From Pelosinus fermentans JBW45 (GTDB lineage Bacteria; Bacillota; Negativicutes; DSM-13327): 64,000 bases of DNA. Positions 8,032 through 37,429 of this stretch are shown piece by piece. The notes below the pieces were generated by a model. The model did not search any database. It was given only the letters and a program-made list of their open reading frames with translations, and was not told the origin of the DNA. The DNA lies in the NCBI RefSeq assembly GCF_000271665.2, contig NZ_CP010978.1, positions 5,228,501 through 5,292,500 on the forward strand, in the 5' to 3' direction. Positions within the stretch are counted from its first letter, which is position 1; each line of letters opens with the position of its first letter. The position numbers and the translations under genes are program-made.

Positions 8032-8062
8032 GCAGCGCTCCTCCTACTCTTACTTACTTGTT

Positions 8063-20000: not shown

Positions 20001-23000
20001 ACAACCCGGACAACATTGTGATGCATGGTCAGATTTCCTTTAGGTTTTCCCGTGGAACCTGAGGTATAGATCACGTAAGCTAAATCCTGTGAGGTATTTT
20101 CTTTTGTTAGGTTTGTTGCGTCCCCTTGGTATAATTCCGAGTCATCCACATCAATGATGTCCCCGTTAAAGGTGATTCCTGCCGCCAAGTATTTATGGGT
20201 TATTAAAATTCCTGTCCCGCTGTCTTCCAGTATATAGCTGACTCTTTCCTCCGGATATTCTGGATCAATAGGCAGGTACGCCCCTCCAGCCTTCAGGACT
20301 CCCATGATACCGATGATCATTTCCGGTGAACGTTCCACCATCATACCGACAATACGACTCTTTTCTACGCCTTTTTTTCTTAGCACTCTTGCCAGTTGAT
20401 TGGCTTTATTGTTCAGTTCTTGATAAGTGAGCTGCTGTTCTTCAAATACTACGGCAATATGGTGGGGATTCTTTTCTACCTGCTCTTCAAAGAGTTCCTG
20501 GATGGTCTTTTCCTTTGGATAGGCTGTTTTCGTATTATTAAAGTCAAGAAGAATTTGACATGTTTCCTCTTTCGATACAAGTTCAATGTCCGCTAACTTA
20601 ATTTGCGGCTGCTCTACGATACTGTTTAATACGTTTTCAACGTGCCTACTGAGTCTTTCCATTGTTTCTTTCTTAAATAGTTTGGTATCATACTCTAATG
20701 TAAAATCTAGCTGGCTGCTTCTTTCTATTGCCTCTAAGGTTAAATCAAATTTCGCGATCTTATTGTCGAATTCATAGCGGGAAAATCTCAAATTTCCAAT
20801 GCTCAGTTCCGCTATATCCACATTTTGGAGAGCAAACATCGTATCAAACAACGGATTTCTGCTTAAATTCCGTGGTATATCCAGCTTGTCCACCAATTCT
20901 TCGAATTGATAATCCTGATTTTCATAAGCCTTGAGTGCATTTTCTTTAACCGCTTGTAAAAATTCCAGGAAACTTTTATTTTTTTCCGGGTAATTTCGCA
21001 TCGCCAGCGTATTAACAAATACACCGATAATATTATGCAAATCTGCATACTGTCTTCCTGCAATGGGTGATCCTACGATAATATCTTCCTGCCCGGTATA
21101 TTTGGACAGTACAACATTATAGGCCGCCAGCAGCACCATATATAACGTCGTACCCGTTTCCATGGCGAGTTTATTCAATTCTCCCGTCACTTCTTCTCCC
21201 AGAGTAAATCGTAATACCTCTCCTTCAAAGCTTCTAACAAGTGGTCTTGGATAATCCCTTGGCATATTGATTACTGGAAGTTCTCCGGCAAAAGCTTTTA
21301 ACCAATATGCTTCCTGCTGTTTTAACGCCTCCCTTTGGAATGCACTGTTCTGCCAAAGGGCAAAATCCTTGTACTGGACTCTTAGTTCCGGTAATTCCTG
21401 ACCTTCATATAAACTCGCCAGCTCTTTTATAAAAATCTCTGCTGTCACACCATCCGATATGATATGGTGCATATCGAATAATACGACATGCTCATTTTCA
21501 GCCATTTCTACCAGCCCCACCCTAAAAAGCGGTGCTTTATTTAGATCAAAGGGACGTGCAAAATCTTGAATGATGCCCGATATATCTTCCTTTTGCCCTT
21601 GAATAAATTCGATAGCAAACTCCATCTCTTGATGAATCCTTTGGACAGGCTCCCCGTCAATGATCTCAAAAGAAGTCCGTAATGTCTCGTGTCTTTGAAT
21701 AAGTCTGTTGAGCACATTCTCAAATTGGTGCTTGTTCAGGGCGCCTTCAACCTTAAAGGCCACAAAATTATTATAGACAGTCTCCTTCGTTTCGAACTGA
21801 TTCAAGATAAACATTCGCTTTTGTGCCGATGATACCGGATAATATTCCTGCTCTGGAGCTATAGGAATCCCAGAAATTCCAGCGTCTACTATCAATAGTT
21901 CCTGGATTTTTGCAATCATTTCCGCAATGCTGGGTCCCTGTAAAAAATATACCATTGGAACCATTACGTCTAGCGCTTTTTCAATTCTGTTTTTTAACTC
22001 AACAGCCATGATCGAGTCAAGTCCTAAACTATTTAAAGAGGTATGGACATCCAGCTTTGCTTTGGACATCCCCAATACCTGACTCACCTGCTCACAAAGA
22101 TAACTCTCTAACAAGTTGTAGTGCTCACCCTCATTTGCCTCTATAAGCTCTTTACGAATGCTGCTTTCCTGGTTGATAGCATTACTGACCGTTCCCGCAG
22201 CTTCGCTTTCCTCTAACAGCAAATCGGCAACCAGCTCAGATTTTCCAATCTGCTGGTATATGATACGCCAGCGTTCCCAATCCACATCCATGACCACAAT
22301 CTGAGTCATATCTGTATTTATCAAATTATCCAATATCTGTAATCCGCACGCAGGTGTTAGCGCATTTATCCCCATACTGGTCGTAGATGACAGGATGTTA
22401 AAGCGCGCTGCCATACCGATTTCCGCCCAAGGCCCCCAGTTAATGCTCAATGCTGGTAAATTTAGATTACGCCGATAGTGCATCAAAGCATCCAAGAAAG
22501 CATTTGCCGCCGCATAGCTCCCTAAGCGCGGAGAACTAACTACAGTGGAAATTGATGAAAATACGATGAAAAAGTCCAGCGGGACATCTTTTAACAGCTG
22601 GTGAAGCTGCCAAGCCCCCTGCACCTTTGGTCGTAAAACTTTGTTAAAGGAGCCCGAATCACACTCTGTCAGTAATTGATCAGCCACTGTCCCTGCCGCA
22701 TGAACGACACCCCTTATCGGTGGCCAGCCTTCTTCACGGAAACTTACAAGGAAATTCTTAAGCTGCTCTTCATCCGCCACATCGACCGCTGCCAAATGAA
22801 CGCTGGCTCCCATAGACTCTAGTTCTTTAATGGTTCCGATTTGATGGGACAGCCGATCTTCGCTTTCAAGAACGCTATCCCATGCGGTGCGAGGCGGCAG
22901 CTCCGTTCTCCCCATCAGAATCAGCCTTCTGGCTCCTTGTTCCACCATCCAGCGTGCAACCTGCATGCCCAAATCTCCAAGTCCACCAGTTATCAAATAT

Positions 23001-26000
23001 GTGCCGTTTCTCTGCCAATAGAAAGGATTATTTCGATCATAGGACAAGCTATGGCGTTTCAGCCGAGCTACATAACGCGTTTTTTGCCGGTAAGCAACCT
23101 GATCTTCTCCTCCCTGAACAAAAATATCTTCTAATAACATGTCTGCAGCCTGTTCACCTTGGTCCTCAGGATCTAAATCTATCAAACCACCCCACAATTC
23201 CTTTTGTTCGATGGCAATTGTCCGTCCCAACCCCCATAAAGGCGCCTGGATAAAATCCACAGGCTCCCCTTCCTCCAAAACCGCTTGACTGCCCCTTGTA
23301 ATGAGCCATAACCGAGGCAATGCTCTATTACCATTTATTTTTAACTCCTGGATAATTTGAATTAGCTGGAGAACATGCAAACATCCCAGATTTTGAGCCT
23401 TTTCCAGGTCAACTGTGGTTATATTATTTTTGTCATTTGAACCGATACTCCAAGTATGTATAATTCCATGACAAACATCCAGAGCAGGATTCAGAACCGT
23501 ATGCAAAAGCTGCTTCAAGTCCTCCTGTGATGAATTTATACTAAATGTATCTTCTGATAAACATTGGAAAGATTGTCCCGGGTAGATCAATACTGTTCTT
23601 TCCCCTCGTTCGGTCAAGCCCTTAGCTACCAAATCGCCAATGCCTTCCTGCTGGGCAAAAATCAACCAGGTTTTTTTCCCTTTCTTATCAGACACCACCC
23701 GATCCTCTCTGCTTAACTCCTTAGGCTGCCACTCTAGCTTATACAGCCAACGATCCAATTCGTCAGAAACAGTATGCTGAGGAATTGGATACATGAGAGT
23801 ATTCTTTTTCATTTCAAACCAGTATTGCTCCCGCTGCCAAGGATAAGTCGGCAGGGAAACGCACCGTGCACCTTCCTGATAAAGCTGCTCCCAGTTCACT
23901 GAAAACCCAAGGGTGTATAGATGCCCTAGAGAATTGAGCATTGCAGCGCCCTCGGGTTCCTGCCTGCGCAAGCTAGGCAACACAATTCCGTTTCTATCCT
24001 GCCGGCTTATGCTTTGCTTAACAGTATTAGAAAGCACCGGATGAGGGCTTATCTCTAAAAACACATTATACTCATCTGCAACTAAGCAATCCACAGCAGC
24101 AGCAAACAGTACCGATTCTCTGAGGTTCCTTACCCAATAATCAACGCTAAGTTCCTGTCCCCCAATTAACTGTCCTGTAACTGTTGAGTAAATAGGAATC
24201 GTCGCTGCTTGTGACTGCAGCCCTTGAAGAGATTCCGCCAATTCACTCATCAACGGTTCCATCTGATAGCTGTGAAAAGCATAATTTACCGGTAAAGCCT
24301 TACAAAATATGTTCCCTTGTTCCAGGGTCGTCATAATTTCTTCAATACTTGCAGGTTCGCCGGACAAAACCAACGAGGTTGGACCGTTATAACATGCGAT
24401 AGAAACCTTATTTTCATAGTTAACAAGCAGCGATTTGGCTTCTTCCCATGCAAGCTCGACTGCCACCGTTTTCCCTTGACCAGTCGTTCTCTGCATAAGC
24501 CTGCTGCGATGAAAAATAACCCGCACGGCGTCAGAAAGGCTCAAGGCTCCCGCAATGTATGCCGCTGCCACCTCACCCATACTATGACCAACGACGGCTT
24601 CTGGCTGAATACCCCATACTATCCACAACCTGGCTAACGCTACTTGAACAGCAAAGAGAGCCGGTTGGACAAATTTCGTTTGATCCAAGCGACTCATAGA
24701 TTCTATTGCTGTTAATTCGGTAACCAATGACCAGTCTGCGTGCTGACTAAATAACACATCACACTCTTCTATTGTCTCCCGAAACACTGGTTCCTCTTGA
24801 AAAAGTTCCCGTCCCATCGCCCACCATTGAGGTCCCTGTCCGGAAAAAACGAAAACCAATTTAGATGAAGCTCCAGAGGATCTTTGACCAGATTGAAGAC
24901 TAGGGAAAGCCTCTCCTTTAAGATACATCTCAAGATGATCTACCACATCTTCCTTTGAGCCGACAACCAAGGACAAGCGATGATCATGCTGACCGCGACG
25001 GGCTCCGGCTGTATAGCATATATCCTTCAAAGAAAAATTCTTGCCTTCCCCGCTTATATAGTCTCGATAAGACCGTGCCAAATCACACAAAGCTTCCTGG
25101 TTAGACGCTGAAATAGGAAGCAGCTGCTTTTCCTTTGGTAAATAATTCATCATATTATGTTTTTTTAAAGAGGTAGATTGAAAACTTTCCAGAACCACAT
25201 GAGCATTCGTTCCACCAAAACCAAAAGAACTCACTCCAGCGAGGAGGGAAGAAGACATGTCTGGCCATGGCCCCAGTTCTGTTTGTACACGTAGAGGTAA
25301 TTCTTCAAATGGAATATAGGGATTTGGATTGTCAAAATGAAGGCTGGCCGGAATTTGCCGATGTTTCATTGCCAGAGCAACTTTAATTAACCCTGCTATA
25401 CCTGCCGCCGCTTCCATATGCCCAATATTGGTCTTGGCTGAACCAATTAAACAAGGATTTTGGGGCGAACGTTCTGCCGCAAGCACTTTTCCTAGTGCTT
25501 TAGCCTCAATGGGATCCCCCAAAGAAGTTCCTGTCCCATGGGCTTCAATATATTGAATTTTCCCAGGAGAAATGCCAGTCCGTCTATACGCTTCCCGCAG
25601 TACCTCTTCCTGGGCCGGACCGTTAGGCGCTGTCAACCCATTACTGCGTCCATCCTGGTTGACAGCACTCCCTGGAATCAATGCATAAATTGGATCATTA
25701 TCCTGAAGAGCCTTGGATAATGATTTTAGTACTACAATTCCCGCACCTTCGCCTCGAACATAGCCGTTTGCCTCTGCGGAGAAGGTCTTGCAGCGACCAT
25801 CAGGTGCTAGCATGCCTGCTTTGGCAAAAGCTTCTGTCACCTCCGGTGACAACAAAAGATTGACGCCACCCGCTAAAGCAAGAGTTGATTCACCATTTTG
25901 CAAACTTTTACAAGCCAAATGTACCGCTACTAACGAAGATGAACATGCCGTATCAATTGACAAACTGGCGCCCTGAAAATTCAACAAATAAGAAATACGA

Positions 26001-26791
26001 TTGGCAGCTACGCTCCAAGCGTTGCCAGTGGCAGCATAAATATCCATTTCCGAGAAAGTTCTTAACATGGTACCATAATCGCAGCCGGAAATGCCTACAA
26101 AGACCCCTACGGATTGTCCGCTTAAGCGCTCAGGTACCTGCCCAGCATCTTCTAATGCCTCCCAGGCTACTTCCAACAATAACCGTTGCTGCGGATCCAT
26201 ACTGGCAGCTTCCCGCGGTGAAATACCGAAAAATTGAGCATCAAATTCATCAATGTTATTAAGATATCCGCCCCAGCTCATTTTCTCTCCTGTGATGCAA
26301 GGCTGCTCCGAATATCCTTGATTTCTCCTATAATCTGACGGTCGCTCACTTATCGCGTCTACACCATCTTTGAGCAAATCCCAGAAAGCTCTAGGTCCAT
26401 TAGCTCCGGGAAAACGGCATCCAATACCAATGATCGCAATTGATTCTGCGATATGATCTTGCTTACCTGTATCCTTGGCAGCAGAATCGTTAGGCGTGTT
26501 AGTCAAAAATCGCGTAATACCATCAATCGTAGGGTAATCCCATACTAAAGTTGGTGAGATATCTCTGCCTAACCATTCTCCCATTTCCCCTGTAATGGTT
26601 ACTGCTTCAGCTGAATCTAACCCGTAAGCAGATAACGGCTCACGAATGTCTATTTTAGACTTTGCCATTTTCAACCGTTCCGCCATTTGAGAAACCAGCC
26701 AGCTTTGAATTTCTTGACTTGTTTTTGTAATTCCAGTACTTGCTGCTTTCATATTGGTTTCTCCTGATACCCCGAAGTGCTCCTTATCCAT
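8063..26791 (-). CDS. Hybrid PKS-NRPS megasynthase, ACP-KS-AT-KR-ACP-(C-A-PCP)x4-C
   Basis: A 6242-residue protein that extends a fatty acid by one malonyl unit and adds four amino acids. Domains: ACP (phosphopantetheine Ser60, GLDSAEAV); KS (117-540; DTACSSS near 282, EAHGTGT, KTNIGH); AT (about 640-940; GHSMGE near 735 and an AFHS motif typical of malonyl); KR (TGGLGDLG near 1267, SYAAAN near 1423); ACP (GLDSIMAVEL near 1592); four C-A-PCP modules from about 1650; and a last C domain (5800-6210). There is no DH or ER, so a 3-hydroxyacyl chain is expected. Aligned Stachelhaus positions read DGFFLGVVF (Ile), DAKDLGVDV (Glu-like, 330/331 swapped), DGFFLGVVY (Ile code) and DAWFLGHVV (Leu-like). 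C domains show HHIISDGVS/T (LCL type). Two starts are possible: ATG 26791 (AAAGGGG upstream, overlapping FAAL by 8 bp) or ATG 26752 (AGGAG eight bases upstream). Confidence 0.97.
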   Translation of the reverse strand: MDKEHFGVSGETNMKAASTGITKTSQEIQSWLVSQMAERLKMAKSKIDIREPLSAYGLDSAEAVTITGEMGEWLGRDISPTLVWDYPTIDGITRFLTNTPNDSAAKDTGKQDHIAESIAIIGIGCRFPGANGPRAFWDLLKDGVDAISERPSDYRRNQGYSEQPCITGEKMSWGGYLNNIDEFDAQFFGISPREAASMDPQQRLLLEVAWEALEDAGQVPERLSGQSVGVFVGISGCDYGTMLRTFSEMDIYAATGNAWSVAANRISYLLNFQGASLSIDTACSSSLVAVHLACKSLQNGESTLALAGGVNLLLSPEVTEAFAKAGMLAPDGRCKTFSAEANGYVRGEGAGIVVLKSLSKALQDNDPIYALIPGSAVNQDGRSNGLTAPNGPAQEEVLREAYRRTGISPGKIQYIEAHGTGTSLGDPIEAKALGKVLAAERSPQNPCLIGSAKTNIGHMEAAAGIAGLIKVALAMKHRQIPASLHFDNPNPYIPFEELPLRVQTELGPWPDMSSSLLAGVSSFGFGGTNAHVVLESFQSTSLKKHNMMNYLPKEKQLLPISASNQEALCDLARSYRDYISGEGKNFSLKDICYTAGARRGQHDHRLSLVVGSKEDVVDHLEMYLKGEAFPSLQSGQRSSGASSKLVFVFSGQGPQWWAMGRELFQEEPVFRETIEECDVLFSQHADWSLVTELTAIESMSRLDQTKFVQPALFAVQVALARLWIVWGIQPEAVVGHSMGEVAAAYIAGALSLSDAVRVIFHRSRLMQRTTGQGKTVAVELAWEEAKSLLVNYENKVSIACYNGPTSLVLSGEPASIEEIMTTLEQGNIFCKALPVNYAFHSYQMEPLMSELAESLQGLQSQAATIPIYSTVTGQLIGGQELSVDYWVRNLRESVLFAAAVDCLVADEYNVFLEISPHPVLSNTVKQSISRQDRNGIVLPSLRRQEPEGAAMLNSLGHLYTLGFSVNWEQLYQEGARCVSLPTYPWQREQYWFEMKKNTLMYPIPQHTVSDELDRWLYKLEWQPKELSREDRVVSDKKGKKTWLIFAQQEGIGDLVAKGLTERGERTVLIYPGQSFQCLSEDTFSINSSQEDLKQLLHTVLNPALDVCHGIIHTWSIGSNDKNNITTVDLEKAQNLGCLHVLQLIQIIQELKINGNRALPRLWLITRGSQAVLEEGEPVDFIQAPLWGLGRTIAIEQKELWGGLIDLDPEDQGEQAADMLLEDIFVQGGEDQVAYRQKTRYVARLKRHSLSYDRNNPFYWQRNGTYLITGGLGDLGMQVARWMVEQGARRLILMGRTELPPRTAWDSVLESEDRLSHQIGTIKELESMGASVHLAAVDVADEEQLKNFLVSFREEGWPPIRGVVHAAGTVADQLLTECDSGSFNKVLRPKVQGAWQLHQLLKDVPLDFFIVFSSISTVVSSPRLGSYAAANAFLDALMHYRRNLNLPALSINWGPWAEIGMAARFNILSSTTSMGINALTPACGLQILDNLINTDMTQIVVMDVDWERWRIIYQQIGKSELVADLLLEESEAAGTVSNAINQESSIRKELIEANEGEHYNLLESYLCEQVSQVLGMSKAKLDVHTSLNSLGLDSIMAVELKNRIEKALDVMVPMVYFLQGPSIAEMIAKIQELLIVDAGISGIPIAPEQEYYPVSSAQKRMFILNQFETKETVYNNFVAFKVEGALNKHQFENVLNRLIQRHETLRTSFEIIDGEPVQRIHQEMEFAIEFIQGQKEDISGIIQDFARPFDLNKAPLFRVGLVEMAENEHVVLFDMHHIISDGVTAEIFIKELASLYEGQELPELRVQYKDFALWQNSAFQREALKQQEAYWLKAFAGELPVINMPRDYPRPLVRSFEGEVLRFTLGEEVTGELNKLAMETGTTLYMVLLAAYNVVLSKYTGQEDIIVGSPIAGRQYADLHNIIGVFVNTLAMRNYPEKNKSFLEFLQAVKENALKAYENQDYQFEELVDKLDIPRNLSRNPLFDTMFALQNVDIAELSIGNLRFSRYEFDNKIAKFDLTLEAIERSSQLDFTLEYDTKLFKKETMERLSRHVENVLNSIVEQPQIKLADIELVSKEETCQILLDFNNTKTAYPKEKTIQELFEEQVEKNPHHIAVVFEEQQLTYQELNNKANQLARVLRKKGVEKSRIVGMMVERSPEMIIGIMGVLKAGGAYLPIDPEYPEERVSYILEDSGTGILITHKYLAAGITFNGDIIDVDDSELYQGDATNLTKENTSQDLAYVIYTSGSTGKPKGNLTMHHNVVRVVKNTNYIEINEKDVLLQLSNYAFDGSVFDIYGALLNGAKLVLVDKASILDMNRLAKVIEQEKVTVFFITTALFNTLVDVNMECLKNVRKVLFGGEMSSARHVRKAFKYMGKGRIIHVYGPTESTVFATYYEVKHIDDGELSIPIGAPIANTSIYILDQGGNLQPIGAPGELCISGDGLATGYLNRPELSAEKFVADPFVQGERMYRTGDLARWLPDGNIEFLGRIDHQVKIRGFRIELGEIEGELLNHLSIKEALVVAKEEITGYKYLCAYIVVTQELTVAEIKEHLIKTLPEYMIPSTFVQLDKMPLTPNGKIDRKALPEPEGKMSTGTEYVAPRNEMEEKLATIWQDVLGVEKVGIEDNFFELGGHSLKAITLVAKIHKEFGAEVPLQEVFKTQTVKELVKTIKGAVQNSYAAIELAAKQEYYPVSSAQKRMFILNQFEAKDTAYNMPAAFKVEGSLDKERFEQALQKLVQRHETLRTSFEFINGEPVQRVHEECNFTMNYREGANQDILNIFQTFIRPFDLGKAPLLRVNLVELSTKNYVVLFDMHHIISDGVSVGILVKELASLYEGQELPELKIQYKDFSAWQNNLLVTESFKQQEAYWLQAFAGEIPVLNMPSDYTRPSIRSFEGDELEFVLGEELTEALNKLAGQTGTTLYMVLLAAYNVALSKYTGQEDIIVGSPIAGRSHDDLENIVGMFVNTLAMRNYPEGNKSFLEFLQEVKLNALSGYEHQDYQFEELVEKLDIPRDLSRNPLFSTLFSLQNVDITELKIGELQFLAYKLDNKTAKFDLTLRAIERNNRLEFTLEYYNKLFKQETIERFGRHFVNLLSSIVAQPENKLTRINMLAENEKRQLLVDFNNKEAVYPTDKTISELFEEQVRITPDHIAVTFAEQHLTYEELNNKANQLAKVLRNKGVQPNSIVGIMVERSLGMMIGLVGILKSGGAYLPIDPEHGKERIAYMLENSQAKILITQNRFIRQAPADIGIVDLEDENIACEESSNVSILNKPNDLAYVIYTSGTTGKPKGVMIEQRNVINLVYGLRDRVYGEYASVLNVALLSPYVFDASVKQIFPALLLGHHLCIVPEHIRFERAGLLNFYRKNEIDISDGTPAHLSVFNSISKSDEYLGVKEFLIGGEALSYAVVQEFLNHFNNSPIKITNVYGPTECCDVATVHEVDCGENHSGDIVPIGKPISNVKVYILGEDLSVLPVNAIGEVYIGGQGVGKGYLNNPELTAEKFIDNPFIPGERMYRTGDLARWLSNGTIEFFGRIDHQVKIRGFRIELGEIEVQLLNHKWIKETVVIAKEDITGQKYLCAYIVAEQEVTIAELREHLAKVVPDYMIPASFVQLEKMPLTLNGKIDRKALPEPEGRGNTGREYVAPRNEAEEKLAKIWENVLGIEKVGIEDNFFELGGHSLKAVTLVAKMHKEFGVEVPLTEVFKAQTVKELSKAVEGAVHTSYAAIEPIAKQQYYPVSSAQKRMFILSQFETADTTYNMPAAFEVEGALDKDRLEKVWQKLVQRHETLRTSFEVIDGAPVQRVHEEIKFTIDLIPGTKEDIPNIIQTFVRPFDLSKAPLLRVGLVELTENLHVVLFDMHHIVSDGVSMRILVKELTRLCEGQELPELRIQYKDFSAWQNNLLTTERFKQQEAYWLQAFAGELPVLNMSSDYPRPAIRSFEGDRLNFELGEELTGELNQLAMENGTTLYMVLLAAYNVVLSKYTGQEDIIVGSPIAGRPHADLENMVGMFVNTLAMRNYPGKNKSFLEFLQEVKVNALMGYEHQDYQFEELVDKLDIPRNLSRNPLFDTMFALQNTDHAVLAIGNLRFSPYELDNKIAKFDLTLEAAERNNRLEFTLEYDSKLFKPETAQRMKRHFVSVLNSVVDQPGIKLRDIELVSEEEKRQIFVDFNNTKTVYPKDKTIQELFEEQVEKAPDHIAVIFEEQLLTYKELNNKANQLARVLRNKGVKNNRIIGMMVERSPEMIIGVMGILKAGGAYMPIDPDYPEERINYMLEDSKTGILVTQQSLRKKVAFIGDIIHVDDQQLYRGDIENVVKENTAQDLAYVIYTSGSTGKPKGNLTMHYNVARVVKNTNYIEITSEDVLLQLSNYAFDGSVFDIYGALLNGGKLVLVDKACVLDMNRLAKVIERERVTVFFITTALFNTLVDVNIECLKKVRKVLFGGEQSSARHVRKAYEYLGRGRIVHVYGPTETTVYATYYEINHLADSDLNIPIGAPIANTSIYILDQAGKLQPIGVPGELCISGDGLARGYLNRPELTAEKFVENPFAPGERMYRTGDLAKWLTDGNIEFLGRIDHQVKIRGFRIELGEIEAELIKHPFIKEALVIAKDDVSGSKYLCAYLVSEQELANTEIREHLARRLPDYMIPSVLVQLDKMPLTSNGKIDRKMLPEPDGSINAGTEYVAPRNAAEEKLAKVWQEVLGVEKVGIEDNFFELGGHSLKAITLVAKIHKEFGVEVPLQEVFKAQTIKELIKIMEGAVENNYVAIESVTEQEYYPVSSAQKRMFVLNQFETKDITYNMPAAFVAEGSLNREHFEQAIQKLAERHETLRTSFELVGGEAVQRVHQELVITIDWLQGKQENPAKIVNDFIRPFDLSKAPLFRVGLMEMAENKYMVLFDMHHIISDGVSMGILVKELASLYDGQELPNLRIQYKDFSTWQNNLLTSENFKKQEEYWLQTFTGEIPVLNLPSDYPRPPIRSFEGERLEFVLGEELMAELNELAGRTGTTLYMVLLTAYNVVLSKYSGQEDIIVGTPIAGRPHADLENIIGVFVNTLAMRNYPEGNKTFLEFLQEVKENALAGYEHQDYQFEELVNKLDIPRSLNRNPLFDTMFTLQNVDISALRMGYLQFTPYELSNKTAKFDLTCQALERNNRLEFTVEYYSKLFRKETMERFGKHFINTLKAIINEPHIRLAAIEMLADDEKQQILIDFNNTQKVYPKNKTALELFEEQVENLPRDTTAVVFGTQRLTYQDLNRKGNQLARILENKGVKPHNIVGILTDRSPEMMVGMIGILKAGGVYLPIDPDYPEERISYMLADSGANILLTQKHLVHKEVFHGETLLLDDENLYYGNDDNLYLKTDSQDLAYVIYTSGSTGKPKGVEIEHASLVNLISWHRRVYNITQEDRASQLAGQAFDAAVWEIWPYLASGAGLYIPNKETRISTNGLIRWLKDNEITISFMPTPMAEALLAEEWPLDISLRALLTGGDKLRRRPCRELPFTLLNHYGPTENTVVATWTSVSPDGHEDMLPSIGSPMDNAQIYIVDRNNKLQPIGVAGELCIAGDGLARGYLNRPELTAEKFVANPFVPGKKMYRTGDLARWLPDGNIEFLGRIDHQVKIRGFRIELGEIEIGLLNHPSIKETVVMTKDDGNDQKYLCAYIVVERELSVAELRKYLGGILPDYMIPLTFIQLETMPLTPNGKIDRKALPEPEERLGAGMEYAAPRNKREETLAQIWQDVLGIEKVGIEDNFFELGGHSLKTINLAARIHKEFGVEVSLQDVFKSQTIKELSKMIEGSVQQDYAGIERVTPQEYYPVSSAQKRMFILSQFANSGTTYNMPAALEVEGSLDKDRFEEVWKKLIERHETLRTSFVVIAGEPVQRVHPKIDFTIDCIQGAEKDIHDIIQTFVRPFDLSKAPLLRVGLVELTEINKHIVLFDMHHIISDGVSIGILIKELASLYDRQELPEIKIQYKDFSSWQDNMFRTEGFKRQEAYWMQTFAGEIPVLNMPSDYSRPAVRSFEGDRLSFSLEEELTGELRKLASQTGTTLYMVLLAAYNVLLAKHAGQEDIIVGTPIAGRPHADLENLVGMFVNTLPMRNHPAGEKSFLEFLQEVKEHALSAYEHQDYQFEKLVEKLDMSRELNRNPLFDTMFALQNIEMNPLEMGTLRFIPYEWDNKTAKFDLTLYAAEGNGRLELMLEYYTKLFTEDTAKRILNDYCKILQQVTKNKDIIIKMISLEEQYVKRKRIQQNLDFNF

Positions 26792-28577
26792 TCACGATTC
26801 CCCTTTCAGCGCGCAGCGTTCCGTCCAATAAGCCCCTACGGCAGGCATGCCGTTGAATTTTTCCGCTTGAAGTCTTCGGAACACTGCCTGGTTTAAGCAG
26901 CAATATTTCATGAATCTGAAGCTCGTGACTGTCAAATACGCTATTCTTAATCGCCGTATAAATTTCTTCTAGGATTTTATTTGGACCGTTTTCCCGTCGC
27001 TCACCATCGACCTGATTTTTATTTACGCGAGGTCGGTATTGCCGTTCAATCTCAGCGACAATACCCAAACGTTCTTCACCGTCAATGTCAATAGAAAAGG
27101 CTGCACAACATCCAGGACGGATTGCTTCATGACATTGGTCAACTGTTAGCTCTATATCTTGTGGGTAATGATTGGTACCCCTTATGATGATGAGATCTTT
27201 AAGGCGTCCCGTAACAAAGAGCTCACCCTTATGAATAAAACCTAGATCCCCAGTTCTTAAAAAAGGTCCTTCACCGCTGTCAGCTAGATATGCTTGGAAA
27301 ACATTTTTGGTAATCTCAGGGTTATTCCAATAACCCTGAGCGACGCTGGGACCAGAAACCCATATTTCCCCTACTTTATCAGGTGAGCATCGAACGAATG
27401 TCTCAGGATCAGTAATGACAAGCTTATGGTCCAGCCAAGTATGTCCGCAGCCTACCAAAACATGATCCTTACCATTCTTATCACCAGTAGAGATAATATT
27501 TCTTTCCAGGTCCTGTGCACTAAACATCTTATATACAAAAGGTTCGCTTACTGCGCCTCCAGAAATCATTAACGTAGTTTCGGCCATACCGTAACATGGA
27601 TAAATAGCTTTCCGACTGAATCCAACTGACTCAAAAGCCGCCCCAAATTTTTCAATGGTATCATAGCGGACAGGTTCAGCTCCATTGAAAGCCGTTTTCC
27701 ATGAAGATAGATCCAGCGTTTTCTTTTGCTCCTCGGTAATTTTATTTATACATAACTCATAAGCAAAATTCGGACCTCCGCAAAATGTACCCTTATAGTC
27801 AGAAATTGCCTTTAGCCAGCGATATGGCTTTTGAAGAAAATCAACGGGCGACATAAAAATATAGGAACTACCAGAATAAATAGTTTGAAGCACATTGGCC
27901 ATCAATCCCATGTCATGATAAATGGGCAGCCATCCAACACTAACGCTTTCCTCATGAAGCTCAAAAGCTGTTTGAATCATCTTTTCATTATTAAGAACGT
28001 TCCCGTGACTTACCATAACGCCCTTTGGTGCTCCTACTGAACCGGAGGTATACTGGAGGAAAGCCAACGTATCTTTCGTTATTGACGGTTCCTGCCATCG
28101 ACTCGCAATTGCAGTGTTGATCTTGTCTGTTATTAACCATTGCACTTCGGATAAACCCTGTGTCTGGGCAATCACAGGTTCAAACTTTGATATAATAGAT
28201 GAAGTAGATAGTACTGCCTGTGCTTTTGAATCCTGTACAATATTCTGGAGCCTTAGTAAATTGCGATTAAGCCTTGGTGGATAAGCAGGTACCGCGATAA
28301 CACCAGCATACAGGCATCCCATAAAAGCAACGATATAATCCAGTCCCGCGGGATAAAGCAGCAAAGCACGTTCACCCCGCAAATCAAGACTTTGCAAAAA
28401 AGCCCCCATGGCTCTGGCCCGCAGGTCTAATTCCCTATAAGTTAAATAGCTTTCTACCGTCTCTCCATTGGTCAAAAAAGTATATATCCGCTTTTCTGGA
28501 TTCCCAAGAGTTCGATACTGGAGAAGTTCTATCAATGAAGAAACTTTTCCCACCGAATCAGCAATTGTGTTTTTCAT
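26784..28577 (-). CDS. Fatty-acyl-AMP ligase (FAAL)
   Basis: A 597-residue stand-alone FAAL that activates a fatty acid as acyl-AMP and loads it on the N-terminal ACP of the megasynthase, starting lipopeptide synthesis. Visible features are the ANL core motif YTSGSVGAPKGVMVSH near residue 178, the PAYPPR signature of this group near 98, GGPNFAYELC, the YGMAETT motif near 328, GEIWVSGPSVAQGYW, and a C-terminal domain ending with the catalytic lysine segment (PKTSSGKIQR). The length matches the family. The ATG has GGAGG seven bases upstream. The stop overlaps the megasynthase start by 8 bp, which suggests translational coupling. The FAAL, ACP and KS are on separate polypeptides, unlike mycosubtilin-type starters where the ligase is fused. 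Confidence 0.95.
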   Translation of the reverse strand: MKNTIADSVGKVSSLIELLQYRTLGNPEKRIYTFLTNGETVESYLTYRELDLRARAMGAFLQSLDLRGERALLLYPAGLDYIVAFMGCLYAGVIAVPAYPPRLNRNLLRLQNIVQDSKAQAVLSTSSIISKFEPVIAQTQGLSEVQWLITDKINTAIASRWQEPSITKDTLAFLQYTSGSVGAPKGVMVSHGNVLNNEKMIQTAFELHEESVSVGWLPIYHDMGLMANVLQTIYSGSSYIFMSPVDFLQKPYRWLKAISDYKGTFCGGPNFAYELCINKITEEQKKTLDLSSWKTAFNGAEPVRYDTIEKFGAAFESVGFSRKAIYPCYGMAETTLMISGGAVSEPFVYKMFSAQDLERNIISTGDKNGKDHVLVGCGHTWLDHKLVITDPETFVRCSPDKVGEIWVSGPSVAQGYWNNPEITKNVFQAYLADSGEGPFLRTGDLGFIHKGELFVTGRLKDLIIIRGTNHYPQDIELTVDQCHEAIRPGCCAAFSIDIDGEERLGIVAEIERQYRPRVNKNQVDGERRENGPNKILEEIYTAIKNSVFDSHELQIHEILLLKPGSVPKTSSGKIQRHACRRGLLDGTLRAERGIVNG

Positions 28578-28621
28578 AAACCAACCTCCAAATTCCTATT
28601 TCTCCCAGTCCACATAAATAA

Positions 28622-28650
28622 AGAAAACGCCTTAAGGCGCTTTCTATCTA
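28622..28650 (-). terminator. Intra-operon hairpin with U-rich tail, copy 2 (MCP-FAAL gap)
   Basis: Read on the minus strand, an 8-bp stem (AAAGCGCC / GGCGTTTT, one G-U) closes a TTAA loop and is followed by CTTTATTT. It begins after ATAGATAG, as does the hairpin at 31279. It lies just after the chemotaxis receptor stop and before FAAL, so it would end or reduce transcription into the synthetase genes unless read through. Confidence 0.6.
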
Positions 28651-28668
28651 TGTTTTATATTCTCCGGT

Positions 28669-30369
28669 TTAAAGTTTAAATCTGCTCACGTTTTCATTCA
28701 TTTTAATGGCCATATTAGCCAGTTCTGCAATATTACTAGCCACTTTTGCCATACTGGCTGTTTGCTCTTCTGTAGCTGCTGCTACAGTTTGCGTCCTACC
28801 GGAAGTAGACGCAGTAGTTTCACTAACTGTTTGAATACTTCCAGCAGTATCCTGTGTCCCCTGAGCAATTTCTTCAGATGCTTGAGACATCTCCTTAATG
28901 TTACTACTAACTCTTTCCAGTTGTTCAATGATCTTTTGAAAACCTGTTTTTGTATTAAATGCAACTTCTTTACCTTTTTCTGTTTCGATCGATGCAATGT
29001 TTGATATCTCTGTCATATTGTTTATTTCATCACTAATATTCTGGATAATAGAAGAAATCTCGCGCGTTGAATTCTCTGATTGCTCAGCAAGCTTTCTAAC
29101 CTCTTCAGCAACCACAGCAAAACCTTTTCCTGCTTCACCGGCTCGTGCGGCCTCAATTGCAGCATTTAATGCAAGTAAGTTGGTCTGACCCGCAATATTG
29201 GAAATCACATCAATAATCGTTTTGATCTGTTTTGATGATTTATTTAAAGCAAGTGTAGCGCTCCCTATACTCTCCATAGAACTGGAAATAGTTTCGTTTT
29301 GGTTTACTACTTCTTCTAGTAATTTCATACCTTTTTGTGATTCTACTACTGCATCTTGGGTATTCTTGTCTATTTGCAATGTTCCTGCACTTAGCTCTTC
29401 CGCGCTAGCTGAAACCTCTTCTATCGTTGTTGAAATATCAGTAATACTCGATGCTGATTCACTGGCACTTATGGCAATATCAGTTACGTTTATGGAAATT
29501 GATTCAGCCGACCGTGAGAATGCATCAGTTGTAGCTGTTAATTCTTCACAAGAAGCCGCTAACGTGGATGATGATTCTTGAATCAGAATGACGGTCTCAC
29601 GAACATGTGCCTTCGTCGCCTCAAGGCGAATTAGCATATCACCAATTTCATCATTGATTGATCTTTTGTAATGACTCGATGTCAAATTTAATTCTCCTAT
29701 CTGGACTACAACGTCATTTAATATAGAAATACGCTTTAATAATCGTTTGGTATAAAAAAGTGCTATTATTATGCATAAAATGGAAATTATTACCGAAGCA
29801 ATTTGTATTGTTACGATTGCTTCATCGATATGCTTGTCCATTGCATTTGATTTAGTATTAAAGTATTCCCCTTGAATTTCAGATAGTATAGAAAAATCAG
29901 CATTAATCCGATCTACTAAATCCCTTCCTTGAGTAGTTAATTCAGCAAGATTCGAAGCATTTATTTTTTTAGCATGAATTACTTTTTCACCTAGAACTTG
30001 ATATTCTTGCAGTTCTTGAAGTAATTTTGCACTTTGTTCTTGGGTATCTTTTTCTTTTGAAGTTTCTCTATAGGCTTGCACTTCTTTTGTCGCTTTACTT
30101 ATATCCTTTCGGTAATTAGTTTCGTAAACTGCTCCATCAGCGTACAGTATAAAGCCTCTCATATTTAATAACGCATTCGTAAATAAATTCTGAGCTTCTT
30201 TCGTCTGTAGCATTCGCGGCACCGTATGAGCTGAAACTCCGTTTACCTCATCCGCTACGAATTTAAAGTTATAAACTGAAAGAATCGCCAATGAGATAAA
30301 CAAAGTAATAATTAAAGCATATATACTGATGACTTGCACTAATAATGAAATCCTTTTTCCCTTAAACAT
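28669..30369 (-). CDS. Methyl-accepting chemotaxis protein
   Basis: A 566-residue membrane chemoreceptor. Residues 10-35 form a first membrane helix, about 40-180 a helical periplasmic/extracellular sensor of the four-helix-bundle (4HB_MCP) type, and about 183-205 a second membrane helix, then a HAMP linker and a long cytoplasmic coiled coil. The signalling hairpin is clear: [20 protein letters not shown] and [10 protein letters not shown] near residues 395-425. It would pass ligand signals to CheA/CheW, which are not in this window. It sits on the same strand between the thioesterase (80 bp upstream) and FAAL (91 bp downstream), so it is probably co-transcribed with the lipopeptide genes. 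That link could let cells sense the product or its targets, but this is inference. The assignment itself is secure. Confidence 0.93.
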
Positions 30370-30449
30370 ATTAAATTCTCCTCGTGATATTTTAAGTTAT
30401 TTGTAATACCTGTAGCATCGTTGCATATAAACGTTTATTGGGTAAATAT

Positions 30450-31241
30450 TTAGCTGCTTTTACATTCTCGATTCATAAAATATCTTCGATAACCAATCGC
30501 TAAGTCTTTGATTATCGAATTCTCTAATTCTCTACCAGCGTTATGTATATAAAAATGATCTCCTTGAAACATTCGTGTTTTAAAGTTACCTATAGTCTGT
30601 TCTTTCCATAATTTCAAATCGTTATAGTTGACTTCGGAATCTTTTATTCCGCCAAAAGCAGAAATAGAACAATCCAGCGGAATACCAGATGAGTATACGT
30701 ATGTCTCATGAAGTGCGAAATCCGCTCTGAGTGAAGGTAATAATACCTTCATTAATTCACTATTTTGTAATACTGCATCCGGAGTACCGTTATATTCACG
30801 TAATCTCTCGATAAACTCGGCATCTGGCAGTAAATGCATGGGTGCTTTTCTTTTTACAATTGTAGGGGCGCGATAACTAGATACAAACAAATGAACAGGA
30901 CTAATCCTTTTCTTTTGCAGTCGCCGAGTCAACTCAAAGCTAATTAAAGCACCTAAACTATGTCCAAAAAAGGCAAATGGAATATTTAATTCTGGTAATA
31001 GTACACTGACTAAAGAATCAATTAAAGGTTCCATTGATGTAAATTGCGATTCTAAAATCCTTTTTTCCCTTCCGGGGTATTGTATGGGACAAATTTCTAT
31101 TTCCTGGGGAAACGAATTAATCCAATCACGAAAAACTGAAGCACTGCCTCCTGCATAAGGAAAGCAAAAAAGACGTAAATGAGGGTAGATATTTGGTCTT
31201 CTGTACGGAATCCACGTATTTGACATGTGCATTTTACTCAT
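30450..31241 (-). CDS. Type II thioesterase of the lipopeptide cluster
   Basis: A 263-residue alpha/beta hydrolase of the GrsT/SrfAD group, which removes wrong or stalled acyl groups from carrier proteins. Motifs: LFCFPYAGGSASVF near residues 24-37, the oxyanion segment, the nucleophile elbow FFGHSLGAL with Ser95, and the C-terminal histidine in GDHFYIHN near 232. Length is normal for the family. The start has AAGGAG upstream. It is a free-standing protein, not the product-releasing domain, which is probably in the synthetase part outside the window. It follows the loaP-like gene by 63 bp with a hairpin in between. Confidence 0.94.
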   Translation of the reverse strand: MSKMHMSNTWIPYRRPNIYPHLRLFCFPYAGGSASVFRDWINSFPQEIEICPIQYPGREKRILESQFTSMEPLIDSLVSVLLPELNIPFAFFGHSLGALISFELTRRLQKKRISPVHLFVSSYRAPTIVKRKAPMHLLPDAEFIERLREYNGTPDAVLQNSELMKVLLPSLRADFALHETYVYSSGIPLDCSISAFGGIKDSEVNYNDLKLWKEQTIGNFKTRMFQGDHFYIHNAGRELENSIIKDLAIGYRRYFMNRECKSS

Positions 31242-31304: not shown

Positions 31305-31805
31305 TTATATTAAAATCCCTTCTAGCTCTATCTTTCTTTTCTCGTCTAACATAGATACTTCTACTGTAATGCGTCGGTTTCTATGGGAAACCTTTTTAAC
31401 TATATGTTCTAATCCGACTAAAGGTCCGTTCAGTATCTGTAATTGTTCATCATGTTTTACGACTGTACTCACTTCGACAATTCCGTCACTCCCCATTAGT
31501 CTCTGAATTAATTCTTTTTCTTCATTCAGTATCGGGACTAGAGCTTCGCCGCTATATACTAACCAAGCAATATTCAATTTGCGTATCCGCAATAATTGGT
31601 CAAATCCTCGTATCTTTTCTCTAGGGCATGAAATAAACAAATAGCCATCAAACAACGGTCTTACTAACCCGATAACGGCTCCTTGCTTGCGCCAGCTGAT
31701 CCTCCTCTTAGGATAAATAAGCTCAACTTCAGGAAACAGTTTTCGTAACATAGTTAAAGCTGCATCCTCCTTACCACAAACCGTGCGCAATACATACCAT
31801 TCAAT
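31305..31805 (-). CDS. loaP: LoaP-like NusG-family transcription antiterminator (AUU start)
   Basis: A 166-residue specialized NusG paralog. The N-terminal NGN domain opens EWYVLRTVCGKED and includes PLFDGYLFI near residue 60. A KOW-type C-terminal domain follows (VKHDEQLQILNGPLVGLEH near 120). Known LoaP proteins in Bacillota make RNA polymerase read through terminators in long polyketide or peptide operons, and this gene heads such an operon. The open frame extends to a GTG at 31814, but that GTG lies inside the Shine-Dalgarno sequence AGGAGGTGAT. The codon at proper distance (GGAGG plus 8) is ATT at 31805, which gives the NusG-like start M-E-W-Y-V. AUU starts are rare and best known in infC, so this may be an autoregulatory or low-rate start. 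A housekeeping NusG is unlikely given the context. Confidence 0.88.
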   Translation of the reverse strand: MEWYVLRTVCGKEDAALTMLRKLFPEVELIYPKRRISWRKQGAVIGLVRPLFDGYLFISCPREKIRGFDQLLRIRKLNIAWLVYSGEALVPILNEEKELIQRLMGSDGIVEVSTVVKHDEQLQILNGPLVGLEHIVKKVSHRNRRITVEVSMLDEKRKIELEGILI

Positions 31806-31807
31806 AA

Positions 31808-31818
31808 CTATCACCTCC
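31808..31818 (-). promoter_or_regulatory. Near-perfect ribosome binding site that places the loaP start at ATT
   Basis: The minus strand reads AGGAGGTGAT, almost the full complement of the 16S rRNA 3' end, followed by AGTT and ATT GAA TGG. The only conventional start in frame nearby (GTG, 31814) overlaps this site, and ATG in GAATGG is in another frame. Confidence 0.75.
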
Positions 31819-32186: not shown

Positions 32187-32936
32187 CTATATACAATAGC
32201 GGCTCTGAAACTCTTTGGCGTGTTCCAAGGTCATTAATGCTGTTTCTTTTGTATTGGCCAACTTAACCAAATAGGTTTTATTACCCCAGGGGGAAAGCTC
32301 CATCACCATATCTGGATTAATGATAAAGCCCTTATGACAGCGGAAAAAGCGGTGCTTTTCTAAGCATTCTTCAAATCTTAGAAGAGGCTCATAGGTTTGG
32401 ACAACCATATCTCCTACAACATGAATCATGGTTTTACGCTCATTGCGCGTAATAAATATAATATCGGGAACGTTGATAAACGTACTTTTATCATTGGATA
32501 GAACTTTAAGTTTGAGATTTTCGTCTCTACTCAACGTTCTCTCCCGCTTCAAAACAGCAACCTGTTCTCTTTCTATTTTCAATTCTTTAATTCGTTTCAC
32601 CGTTTGCCGAATCCGTTCTAAGTCAAAAGGCTTAACTAGATAATCAAATGCGTAAACTTCAAAAGCCTCACGAGCATAGCAATTAAAACCAGTCGCAAAG
32701 ATGAGAAAAATGTTGGGATTAATATCGAAGATTTCTTTCGAAGCCTCAATGCCGCTTACTTCTGGCATATCAATATCTAAAAATATAACTTCCGGCTCCA
32801 GTTCCTCCACCATCTCAACGAGCTGACGCCCGTTTCCCGCTTCGCCAACAATACTAATCCCTGGCAGCTTCTCAATGACGTTTTTTAACACCCGCCGCAT
32901 TAAAGGATCATCGTCGGCGATAATGATTTTTAGCAT
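32187..32936 (-). CDS. AgrA/LytTR-type response regulator
   Basis: A 249-residue response regulator with a receiver domain (acidic pocket DDD near 8-10, phospho-acceptor Asp54 in FLDIDMP, lysine in LVKPFD near 102) and a C-terminal LytTR DNA-binding domain (about 140-245; FITRNERKTMIHV, RFFRCHKGFIINP). It is the likely partner of the AgrC-like kinase upstream and the final output of the peptide quorum sensor. The start ATG 32936 has AAAGGG upstream and lies 27 bp after agrD. It is a little longer than S. aureus AgrA, with a linker of about 25 residues. The lipopeptide operon begins about 100 bp downstream, making it the best candidate target. Confidence 0.92.
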   Translation of the reverse strand: MLKIIIADDDPLMRRVLKNVIEKLPGISIVGEAGNGRQLVEMVEELEPEVIFLDIDMPEVSGIEASKEIFDINPNIFLIFATGFNCYAREAFEVYAFDYLVKPFDLERIRQTVKRIKELKIEREQVAVLKRERTLSRDENLKLKVLSNDKSTFINVPDIIFITRNERKTMIHVVGDMVVQTYEPLLRFEECLEKHRFFRCHKGFIINPDMVMELSPWGNKTYLVKLANTKETALMTLEHAKEFQSRYCI

Positions 32937-33175: not shown

Positions 33176-33220
33176 GCATCCTTGTTCAATCGCTCTGCAC
33201 GCTTGTCCAAAAAGGTTGTT

Positions 33221-33874
33221 TTATTGTCTAAAGGGGAATGCACACTTATCAAACACTATTTCTACAGCGGCGATAAATCGGTAACCGGCGGGAGTGATGC
33301 TGAAAATTTGCCGCAAGAACCCCCCAATGCTTGCCATAACAAGAGAAAAAATTATCGGAGACCCTCCCCAGAAGATCAATACACTCATTCCAACGACCCA
33401 AACAGAAGTGAAAATATAAGAAAACCTTCTAAAGCGCGCTCTTTTCACAGCCGAAACAACAGGCTTTGCCGGCGTATCGGCAGGTGACCACTTGTATATG
33501 ACATAGACGCCTACAATCATAGAAAAAGCCACTAAGGATAACAGCAGTTCCTGTGATGCCAACGCTCCAAAGCGAAAAGCCAGCTCACCAATCCCCGTCA
33601 AAATGACAGTGCCTATTATCGTACAGCGAAATAGACTTGATGCATGGGCTCCCCCGGAAATAATTCGTAGACCGTTAAGCGTAAACCAGGCAGTGAGTAC
33701 GTAAGGTAAAATTCCAAGCCCCCACGCAACACCAATAAGGACCCCAAAGCCGACAAGAAAAGCTAAGAAAAGCTCCACCCCAAACCGTACCATATCCGTA
33801 TTTTTAACGTCAAGCTGTAATTCCTTCCCTAAATAGTGCGCTATACCCGCGGCAACGTCTCTTACTTCAACCAT
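33221..33874 (-). CDS. agrB: AgrB-like autoinducer-processing membrane protease
   Basis: A 217-residue integral membrane cysteine peptidase that cleaves AgrD and closes its thiolactone. The signature GGAHASSLFRC holds His77 and Cys84, the same numbers as the catalytic pair of S. aureus AgrB. Hydrophobic segments lie near 34-55, 85-105, 110-127, 155-175 and 180-200. Length is normal (about 190-220). The start has GGAGG eight bases upstream, and the first 8 bases overlap the end of agrC, so the two are translationally coupled. GGAH instead of the common GGYH is a minor variant. Confidence 0.94.
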   Translation of the reverse strand: MVEVRDVAAGIAHYLGKELQLDVKNTDMVRFGVELFLAFLVGFGVLIGVAWGLGILPYVLTAWFTLNGLRIISGGAHASSLFRCTIIGTVILTGIGELAFRFGALASQELLLSLVAFSMIVGVYVIYKWSPADTPAKPVVSAVKRARFRRFSYIFTSVWVVGMSVLIFWGGSPIIFSLVMASIGGFLRQIFSITPAGYRFIAAVEIVFDKCAFPFRQ

Positions 33875-35258
33875 TTTTTACTCCTCCCCCCAAAAACCAA
33901 AAACTCCGTTTTACCCTCTGCGGCTTGCCTAATGGCTGATCTCCTGAAATCACAACCTGAAAACACGTACCCTCGCTATCACTCCTCACCCTGATCTTGC
34001 CATTGTATTTATGTACCAGCTTTTGAATGCTGTAAAGCCCCATACCTCTTCCTTCCCCTTTGGTTGAAAAACCCGGTGCAAATATTTTGTCAATCGCATC
34101 CTGCAAGATCGGCGGTCCGTAATTTTTCACTTCCAATACATAGCCTGCCAAGTCCTGTCCGATAGTAACCTCTACCTTTCTTTCCGGTATCGGCAGTTCA
34201 GTCACCGCATCCAGAGCATTATCAATCAAATTTCCCAGAATTAGATTAATATCTCGTGCTTCCAGGGGAAACTGTTGCAGGCTAGTTTCCACTGCAATAC
34301 GCAAGTCAATTTTGCGCGCTTCCGCCAAACCAGTCTTGACATATAGCAACGCAGTCACACCTAGGTTATCGGTTTTCACCAATTGAGAAGTAGCAACGAC
34401 TTCGCTCACACTCTTTCTCAAATAGTTCCGGGCCTCTTGAAACTCCTCTACCTCCAGCAAACCATAGATCACCTGCAGTTCGTGAGTAAAATCGTGACGC
34501 TGTATACGCATCGTATGTAGCAAGCCTTCCACATAATGAAGGTTATCCAACTGTACTTTGAACTCAACTTCACTTTTAGTAAGTGTAACAAATTGTTTAA
34601 CAACAATTATTGTAATAATTGGTAACACTATATTTATAATAGCAAAATAAAAATAGAAATAAAAGGGAGGAAGAAGTCCCATGTATTGAAGCAGATATTT
34701 CCAACAAAAAAGGTCAATTAATATACTTTGGGTAAATAGCAATCCCGCGATCCATAGAAATTGTTTGTTTCCTATTTTTTCCCATATATTTGCCAACCGA
34801 ATACTAACCCCGCGAATCAGGAGAATGAGCAATAAGTTAATCATTAGTTTTGAGGCAAAATACGGAAGCCGAGACCACCAGTTGCTTTCACTTAAAATAG
34901 CAATGGGCTGACCCGTTATAAAAATGTATGAAGATACCGTCAAGACTTCAATGCAGGTAAAGACACTCCATCCCAAAAAAACAGCCAGCATGCTCTTTTT
35001 ATATGAAATTGGCATGGTACTGTATATTATTCCCATAAGAGATGCCATTTGTATTATCGTGTGAACGCCAAAGGGAATGGAAATCAATTTGCCGACAACC
35101 AAAAACAGAAAGGCAGCAAAAATTGCCTGCAAAGATCCGATCTGTAAGATTTGACGAAACGTTGGTCTGATGCCAAGAAGTGACAAACATAGCCACCCTA
35201 ATATCAGTGCTTCTGGAAAAGAATAAACGAGAATAACAATAAAGTTAAGCTTTGGCAT
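33867..35258 (-). CDS. agrC: AgrC-like sensor histidine kinase
   Basis: A 463-residue receptor kinase. The N-terminal half (about 1-210) has six or seven hydrophobic helices, as in peptide-sensing AgrC proteins. The dimerization helix carries the phospho-acceptor histidine in RIQRHDFTHELQVIYGLLE (near 254), typical of the HPK10/SpoB-like class, followed by the ATPase domain with NLIDNALDAV (N box, near 345) and GEGRGMGLYSIQKL (G box, near 410). ATG 35258 has GGAGGG five bases upstream. It would sense the AgrD peptide and phosphorylate the LytTR regulator. No strong promoter is seen directly upstream; transcription may come from the riboswitch promoter at 35829. Confidence 0.92.
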   Translation of the reverse strand: MPKLNFIVILVYSFPEALILGWLCLSLLGIRPTFRQILQIGSLQAIFAAFLFLVVGKLISIPFGVHTIIQMASLMGIIYSTMPISYKKSMLAVFLGWSVFTCIEVLTVSSYIFITGQPIAILSESNWWSRLPYFASKLMINLLLILLIRGVSIRLANIWEKIGNKQFLWIAGLLFTQSILIDLFCWKYLLQYMGLLPPFYFYFYFAIINIVLPIITIIVVKQFVTLTKSEVEFKVQLDNLHYVEGLLHTMRIQRHDFTHELQVIYGLLEVEEFQEARNYLRKSVSEVVATSQLVKTDNLGVTALLYVKTGLAEARKIDLRIAVETSLQQFPLEARDINLILGNLIDNALDAVTELPIPERKVEVTIGQDLAGYVLEVKNYGPPILQDAIDKIFAPGFSTKGEGRGMGLYSIQKLVHKYNGKIRVRSDSEGTCFQVVISGDQPLGKPQRVKRSFWFLGGGVKNG

Positions 35259-35366
35259 TTCTGCCCTCCTTCAAAACAGTAGACTTCTTTATTGGTCCAT
35301 ATATAAATATTTTCACTATGGAATACGTCATTTGATGTTTCTATAAAAATATTTCTTGGGATGCTT

Positions 35367-35600
35367 TCAAAGATAGGAAACCATAACTTCCCCCACAATA
35401 ATCAGGGTAACAATCGGCAAAATCGTATTTACCGTGATAAAAGCTGCTTCGGCCGCCTCCCCATGCTCCTGATAAGAATAGTACTGATAACAACTAACGA
35501 TGACAAAAAACTTTGAATAAGCAGCAAGCACCTAACCACAAAAGACAAATAGTAACATAACGATTCAATGGAAATATAGACCGTAAAGCCAAGACCATAG
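35367..35600 (-). pseudogene. Remnant of a second AgrC-like sensor kinase
   Basis: Minus-strand translation gives hydrophobic pieces in two frames. One has CLLLIQSFLSSLVVISTILI, resembling the intact AgrC segment LLFTQSILIDLF. Another has ITVNTILPIVTLIIVGEVMV, close to AIINIVLPIITIIVVKQFV of the intact kinase, and ends at a stop (35367-35369). They occur in the same order as in AgrC, so a frameshifted, truncated copy of the membrane sensor part is the likely origin. No kinase domain remains. It lies between the c-di-GMP riboswitch and the intact agrC. Confidence 0.5.
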
Positions 35601-35665
35601 CTAAACAACTGCTTTTATTTCAACCTTCCTTTTAAGAAAAGACATCGTTCATGCTTTTCAGACAA

Positions 35666-35698
35666 CAAAAATAGAAAGCAAGACATCCAGTCTCACTT
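35666..35698 (-). terminator. Intrinsic terminator of the c-di-GMP riboswitch
   Basis: On the minus strand a 9-bp stem (AAGTGAGAC / GTCTTGCTT, two G-U pairs) with loop TGGAT is followed by TCTATTTTTGTT. It begins 9 bases after the aptamer, so it is the likely expression platform. Confidence 0.75.
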
Positions 35699-35707
35699 TT
35701 TTTCAAG

Positions 35708-35784
35708 TTGCAACCTGGCAATCATAGGTTTAGAACCCTCTAGATCCATGGCTTTGCGTCCTCACCTTTCGATGAGTTTGCTCA
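35708..35784 (-). ncRNA. c-di-GMP-I (GEMM) riboswitch
   Basis: On the minus strand the conserved aptamer blocks are present in order: GCAAACTCATCGAAAGG, where CUCAUC/GGUGAG closes a GAAA tetraloop; GGACGCAAAGCC; then CTAAACCTATG; then GATTGCCAGGTTGC. These match the GEMM-I aptamer, including the tetraloop and its receptor side. It senses the second messenger cyclic di-GMP. It lies about 10 bases past the expected transcription start of a consensus promoter and just before a terminator. The genes downstream are an agrC fragment and then agrCBDA, so c-di-GMP probably controls quorum sensing. Whether it is an ON or OFF switch cannot be told without folding. Confidence 0.88.
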
Positions 35785-35800
35785 TTATTTTATTGTACAA

Positions 35801-35829
35801 ATTATACATTTTTTAGCAAATTATGTCAA
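35801..35829 (-). promoter_or_regulatory. Consensus sigma-A promoter driving the riboswitch
   Basis: On the minus strand TTGACA (35829-35824), exactly 17 bases, then TATAAT (35806-35801). Both hexamers are perfect. The expected start is close to 35794, a few bases before the aptamer. Confidence 0.85.
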
Positions 35830-37412: not shown

Positions 37413-37429
37413 ATTTTCAGCTCCTTCCA

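Follow-up and report, generated by a model that had tools for sequence, protein, structure and literature searches.

Riboswitches that sense c-di-GMP are known mainly from positions before motility, adhesion and surface genes. Two class I examples frame the locus described here. In C. difficile, Cd1 (Cdi-1-3) occupies the 5' leader of the flgB operon, where an intrinsic terminator comes after a GEMM-I aptamer and control is OFF, and every one of the seven class I switches that function in this species is of the OFF type (PMC6366702). Bc2 of Bacillus thuringiensis belongs to the same aptamer class and is an ON switch, which acts on a collagen adhesion gene by transcription read-through (PMC6366702). 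The agr systems of S. aureus and C. difficile (agr2, agrACDB) are composed of AgrB, AgrD, AgrC and a LytTR-type AgrA. The link between agr and c-di-GMP in C. difficile runs in reverse, in that an agrA mutant has lower expression of c-di-GMP enzyme genes (PMC8428550). LoaP of Bacillus velezensis, a paralogue of NusG, favours transcriptional read-through in antibiotic operons of great length (PMC12691694).

The leader analysed here shares with Cd1 an aptamer followed by an intrinsic terminator, but its target is a quorum-sensing operon rather than a flagellar one, with a predicted direction of control; relative to Bc2, the predicted sign is opposite. The operon has the four components of the S. 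aureus and C. difficile systems, and differs from both in its C-B-D-A order, in the c-di-GMP riboswitch at its head and in the NRPS/PKS cluster behind it. A NusG paralogue is encoded here as well; it falls just under the LoaP cut-off, it resembles the B. velezensis factor at the level of the protein, and, unlike in that system, the cluster follows an agr operon. We found no published report of a c-di-GMP riboswitch before agr (or NRPS) genes in a search of the main text of freely accessible papers. The most far-reaching interpretation, to which we assign a probability of roughly 0.45, is that control of agr by c-di-GMP riboswitches arose several times independently in the phylum, as an OFF gate that would allow signalling and listening only at low c-di-GMP, and that here it stands at the top of a regulatory chain in which c-di-GMP acts on lipopeptide synthesis by way of agr and a LoaP-like antiterminator.

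Anatomy of the leader and the operon

The features are collected in Table 1, with positions given in the window, by which we mean the whole 64-kb stretch of DNA analysed.

Table 1. Leader, agr operon and downstream genes of the window (G005 is the other AgrB-bearing genome among eight of the genus)
Feature	Position	Strand	Basis
Sigma-70 promoter, TTGACA-17-TATAAT	35801..35829	-	12/12 consensus positions; kept in the G005 agr leader
c-di-GMP-I (GEMM-I) aptamer	35706..35792	-	RF01051, 76.1 bits, E 3.7e-13
Intrinsic terminator, stem of 10 bp (35699-35675) with U-rich tail	35666..35699	-	Folding; stem kept in G005
Decayed agrC-like relic in the terminator-agrC interval	35360..35660	-	tblastn E 1e-4 and 6e-6; stops and frameshifts
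agrC, sensor histidine kinase	33867..35258	-	PF14689 (SPOB_a) and PF14501 (GHKL)
agrB, peptide-processing membrane protease	33221..33874	-	PF04647, 108.5 bits (cut-off 23)
Three direct repeats, 21-bp period, AgrA/LytTR-type box before agrD	33181..33233	-	Weight matrix
agrD, peptide precursor, 47 aa	32964..33107	-	Alignment to five AgrD-like ORFs from other agr loci
agrA, LytTR response regulator	32187..32936	-	PF00072 and PF04397
LoaP-like NusG paralogue	31305..31814	-	NF033641, 118.7 bits (cut-off 125)
Thioesterase, chemotaxis receptor, acyl-AMP ligase, two NRPS/PKS proteins	4036..31241	-	ORFs and families

Between 31000 and 36300 of the window, only one site matches TTGACA-17-TATAAT perfectly, and it is the promoter that the first-pass annotation had placed there, correct in coordinates and strand. 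A covariance search with RF01051 bears out the GEMM-I aptamer with a GAAA tetraloop proposed behind it. The match spans model positions 1-87, the full length of the model, and scores 76.1 bits against a gathering score of 35; cmscan returned it as the sole gathering-level Rfam match in the 64 kb. Its P2 helix is capped by the GAAA loop (GNRA-type), the alignments place the invariant core GCAAA and GACGCAAAG within the aptamer, and every residue invariant across a 24-sequence GEMM-I alignment is retained; P1 is short. The aptamer itself is an ordinary RF01051 member, and the new part is the recurrent target.

The expression platform downstream of the aptamer is the adjacent intrinsic terminator of the earlier annotation, which folding supports. 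Its stem of 10 pairs (-10.7 kcal/mol, z -5.0 versus shuffles) starts 7 nt past the 3' end of the aptamer, and thus outside it, with CUAUUUUUG directly 3' of the stem. No further terminator is predicted on the same strand from 35675 to agrC. From this anatomy the parts appear to form the complete transcriptional switch that had been claimed, with a predicted response to ligand and, in the window copy, a weak antiterminator.

The first intact minus-strand gene downstream is indeed agrC, about 410 nt from the terminator (about 400 bp in the earlier estimate), and a relic of about 300 nt sits within that spacing. A full agr operon follows on the minus strand, in the order agrC, agrB, agrD, agrA. 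AgrD, a short protein, returned no family match. The AgrD-like ORFs of the five other loci share a common pattern of Cys or Ser, four residues and YQPxxP, and on the strength of this alignment we predict CGGAD as the peptide core, ahead of YQPVVPEH. The predicted role of the system is to make and sense a cyclic peptide.

Recurrence before agr and probable direction of the switch

AgrB loci were sampled from 398 genomes of the phylum, and 100 stretches were fetched and searched with a covariance model derived from an alignment of 24 GEMM-I sequences. In this sample, which favoured AgrC similar to that of the window, agrC adjoins agrB on one strand in 41 stretches, and six of these carry a coding-strand GEMM-I aptamer 58-201 nt before agrC. 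The six loci (L105, L110, L113, L114, L119 and L182) belong to six genomes and are distinct from the window locus. In each, a terminator-like hairpin with a T run follows the aptamer; in L182, the agrC-like ORF starts at 3252, 58 nt past the aptamer. The count leaves out L183, nearly identical to L114 and on a second contig of that genome, and the matches in L143 and a second match in L113, which lie ahead of other genes. About 0.16 such loci would be expected by chance, a value that assumes one leader per 2 kb over which each genome's aptamers are spread and that is somewhat low, with aptamer counts limited to at most 10 per genome; the probability is about 2e-8 when six loci are counted and 6e-4 when they are reduced to three independent origins. 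Well-supported branches of the AgrC tree force at least four changes of aptamer state, gains or losses alike. Among 13 loci without GEMM-I, no other riboswitch class in Rfam was found directly before agrC.

The arrangement had been called unusual, which is fair: it is the minority state among the sampled agrC-agrB loci. It recurs, however, in several lineages. This recurrence suggests repeated coupling, within the phylum, of the choice between a motile and a sessile life to quorum sensing. Five of the six loci with such a leader (L105, L110, L113, L114 and L182) have a split AgrC, whose membrane and kinase parts are encoded by separate ORFs.

With 14 GEMM-I aptamers and 20 GGDEF matches in the window genome, c-di-GMP signalling appears well developed. 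Outside the window, GEMM-I aptamers lie less than 1 kb from GGDEF genes at two places (G000 5321421-5321508 with GGDEF 5320126-5320602, and 1145647 with GGDEF 1146416), possibly reflecting feedback of c-di-GMP on its own synthesis. The GEMM-I leaders of this genome come in two layouts, with the terminator either overlapping the 3' strand of the aptamer (ON-like) or standing outside it (OFF-like), and the window copy has the latter. Among the agr leaders of other lineages, L105, L110, L113 and L119 have an aptamer 3' end complementary to the terminator over 6-7 bp (CCAGGU:ACCUGG, CGCCGGG:UCCGGCG, AAGGAG:CUCCUU). In these four, a folded aptamer would leave the terminator free, which argues that they are OFF switches. 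The corresponding antiterminator of the window copy has 4 bp (CCAG:CUGG) and does not outperform shuffled terminators (121 of 300). When the aptamer was forced in equilibrium folding, the outer terminator pairs rose from about 0.26 to 0.98, and the inner pairs formed in both cases.

Our data point to a c-di-GMP-I riboswitch, with ligand binding predicted, that likely controls transcription of the agr operon. Given its layout, the other agr leaders and the class I precedent in C. difficile, the window copy is probably an OFF switch, in which c-di-GMP brings about termination before agrCB. RNA polymerase would start near 35794, transcribe the aptamer and reach the terminator ahead of agrC. Bound c-di-GMP would stabilise the aptamer and keep its 3' strand off the terminator loop; the terminator would then form, and no agrCB would be made. 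At low c-di-GMP, read-through would supply AgrC as receptor and AgrB as processor of the peptide. Points that weigh against this reading are the weak antiterminator and short P1 of the window copy, the relic that separates the terminator from agrC, and the loss or lack of the aptamer in related agr loci.

Alternatively, the same wiring could carry the opposite sign, with c-di-GMP preventing termination and agr made in the sessile state. Class I switches of the ON type have a precedent in Bc2, the ON-like overlapping terminator is seen in five paralogues of this genome (L001, L004, L007, L011 and L014), and the antiterminator of the window copy is weak. Yet we consider an ON switch unlikely, as the window terminator, with its 7-nt offset, can form alongside the aptamer and the other agr leaders carry OFF-type antiterminators.

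The leader in same-genus relatives

AgrB is present in two of eight genomes of the genus, that of the window and G005, whose agrC orthologue is 60-61% identical. Upstream of the G005 orthologue there is no Rfam match. Its leader nonetheless aligns with that of the window in three parts, namely promoter, second aptamer half and terminator, and the alignment without the promoter reaches a local score of 60, a value that none of 1000 shuffles approached beyond 35. G005 has lost the GACGCAAAG core as well as P2 and its tetraloop, and the full model leaves a 7-bit residue in that exact place. As the agrC of G005 is itself immediately preceded by the homologous promoter and terminator, the leader belongs to agr; most likely it was part of an ancestral agr unit and has eroded in one lineage. 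An eroded GEMM-I leader at L016 1196-1360 (L064 9174-9338) keeps the promoter, the P3 half and the terminator and lacks P2 and the ligand-binding core; it is a natural negative control. We reject strict conservation of the association between aptamer and agr, with a 7-bit aptamer residue in G005 and none in G026. The closest AgrC relatives outside the genus are without a GEMM-I aptamer; given this and the loss in G005, riboswitch control of agr would seem dispensable.

Erosion in the sister locus raises the question of whether the window aptamer, intact by sequence, is itself idle and heading the same way, with agr driven by other promoters. The short P1 and the weak antiterminator would fit such an idle element, and in C. 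difficile only 11 of 16 c-di-GMP riboswitches are functional (PMC6366702). Against this, the aptamer scores within the range of its 13 paralogues (70.7-80.3 bits), the invariant residues are kept, and promoter and terminator are intact. An idle aptamer is thus doubtful, and in our judgement even less probable than an ON switch.

Three relatives without agr (G002, G004 and G007) are collinear with the window along the upstream flank as far as the -10 box, past which G004 and G007 have a different gene, DUF362-like by visual assignment. The agr/NRPS block therefore seems to sit at a junction marked by the -10 box. A Cof/HAD-type phosphatase-like gene at 37019-37430 (minus strand) is split into two ORFs, apparently a pseudogene, and is also fragmented in the relative L059. 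The collinear flank and the stop-ridden relic would allow that the riboswitch served another, now decayed gene with agrC merely behind it, but we reject such a chance neighbourhood as very improbable, given the homologous leader directly before agrC in G005 and a recurrence far above expectation, and the relic itself is agrC-like.

Possible feedback, downstream genes and significance

The terminator-agrC interval of L105, L110, L113 and L119 holds TTTCAGACAAG-like direct repeats with a period of 21 bp. A weight matrix trained on these repeats and those of G005, with the sites of the window excluded, gave its highest-scoring pair in the window at 33233-33202 (24.1, versus at most 15.1 in six shuffled windows), with a third, weaker repeat just before agrD (33191-33181). 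This array is the top match genome-wide, and the remaining matches are at the level of a reversed-pattern control. G005 has repeats at the corresponding place before agrD. The core TTTnAGACAA recurs at the sites in L105, L110, L113 and L119, in the window array and at L064 11456-11508; the repeats are positioned below the riboswitch terminator in other genera and before agrD in this genus. A spacing of 21 bp is known for AgrA/LytTR sites, and the repeats are probably such boxes. Because the array precedes agrD, the riboswitch may gate agrCB while AgrA drives agrDA, which would give peptide-dependent feedback on agrDA.

Behind agrA, the LoaP-like protein scores below the NF033641 cut-off, with the NusG and RfaH models far behind, hence our designation of it as LoaP-like only. 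The NRPS/PKS run that follows continues with another NRPS just outside the window. A chemotaxis receptor gene (MCPsignal, CHASE3; 28669-30369, minus strand) lies inside this biosynthetic run, between the thioesterase and the acyl-AMP ligase. The LoaP-like gene is a probable downstream target of the agr circuit, and the lipopeptide-type NRPS/PKS genes are its probable output. The weight matrix found no AgrA-type boxes clearly above the shuffled level before the LoaP-like or NRPS genes of the window. In the interval between agrA and the LoaP-like gene, 32163-32110 (minus strand) folds into a very stable hairpin (-37.3 kcal/mol), perfectly paired over about 20 bp and followed by a U-rich tail; it may be a terminator, an attenuator or the remnant of a mobile element. 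Since this hairpin intervenes, read-through from agr into the biosynthetic genes is possible rather than certain.

If the recurrence before agr is true, an intracellular signal for the motile or sessile state would gate cell-to-cell signalling directly at the RNA level, without a protein regulator. The circuit is simple and testable: the riboswitch would gate receptor and processor, and the AgrA-type repeats would give feedback. Other lineages provide natural replicates and the sister species a natural loss. The riboswitch-agr circuit also offers a lead on the conditions under which a large NRPS/PKS cluster may be expressed.
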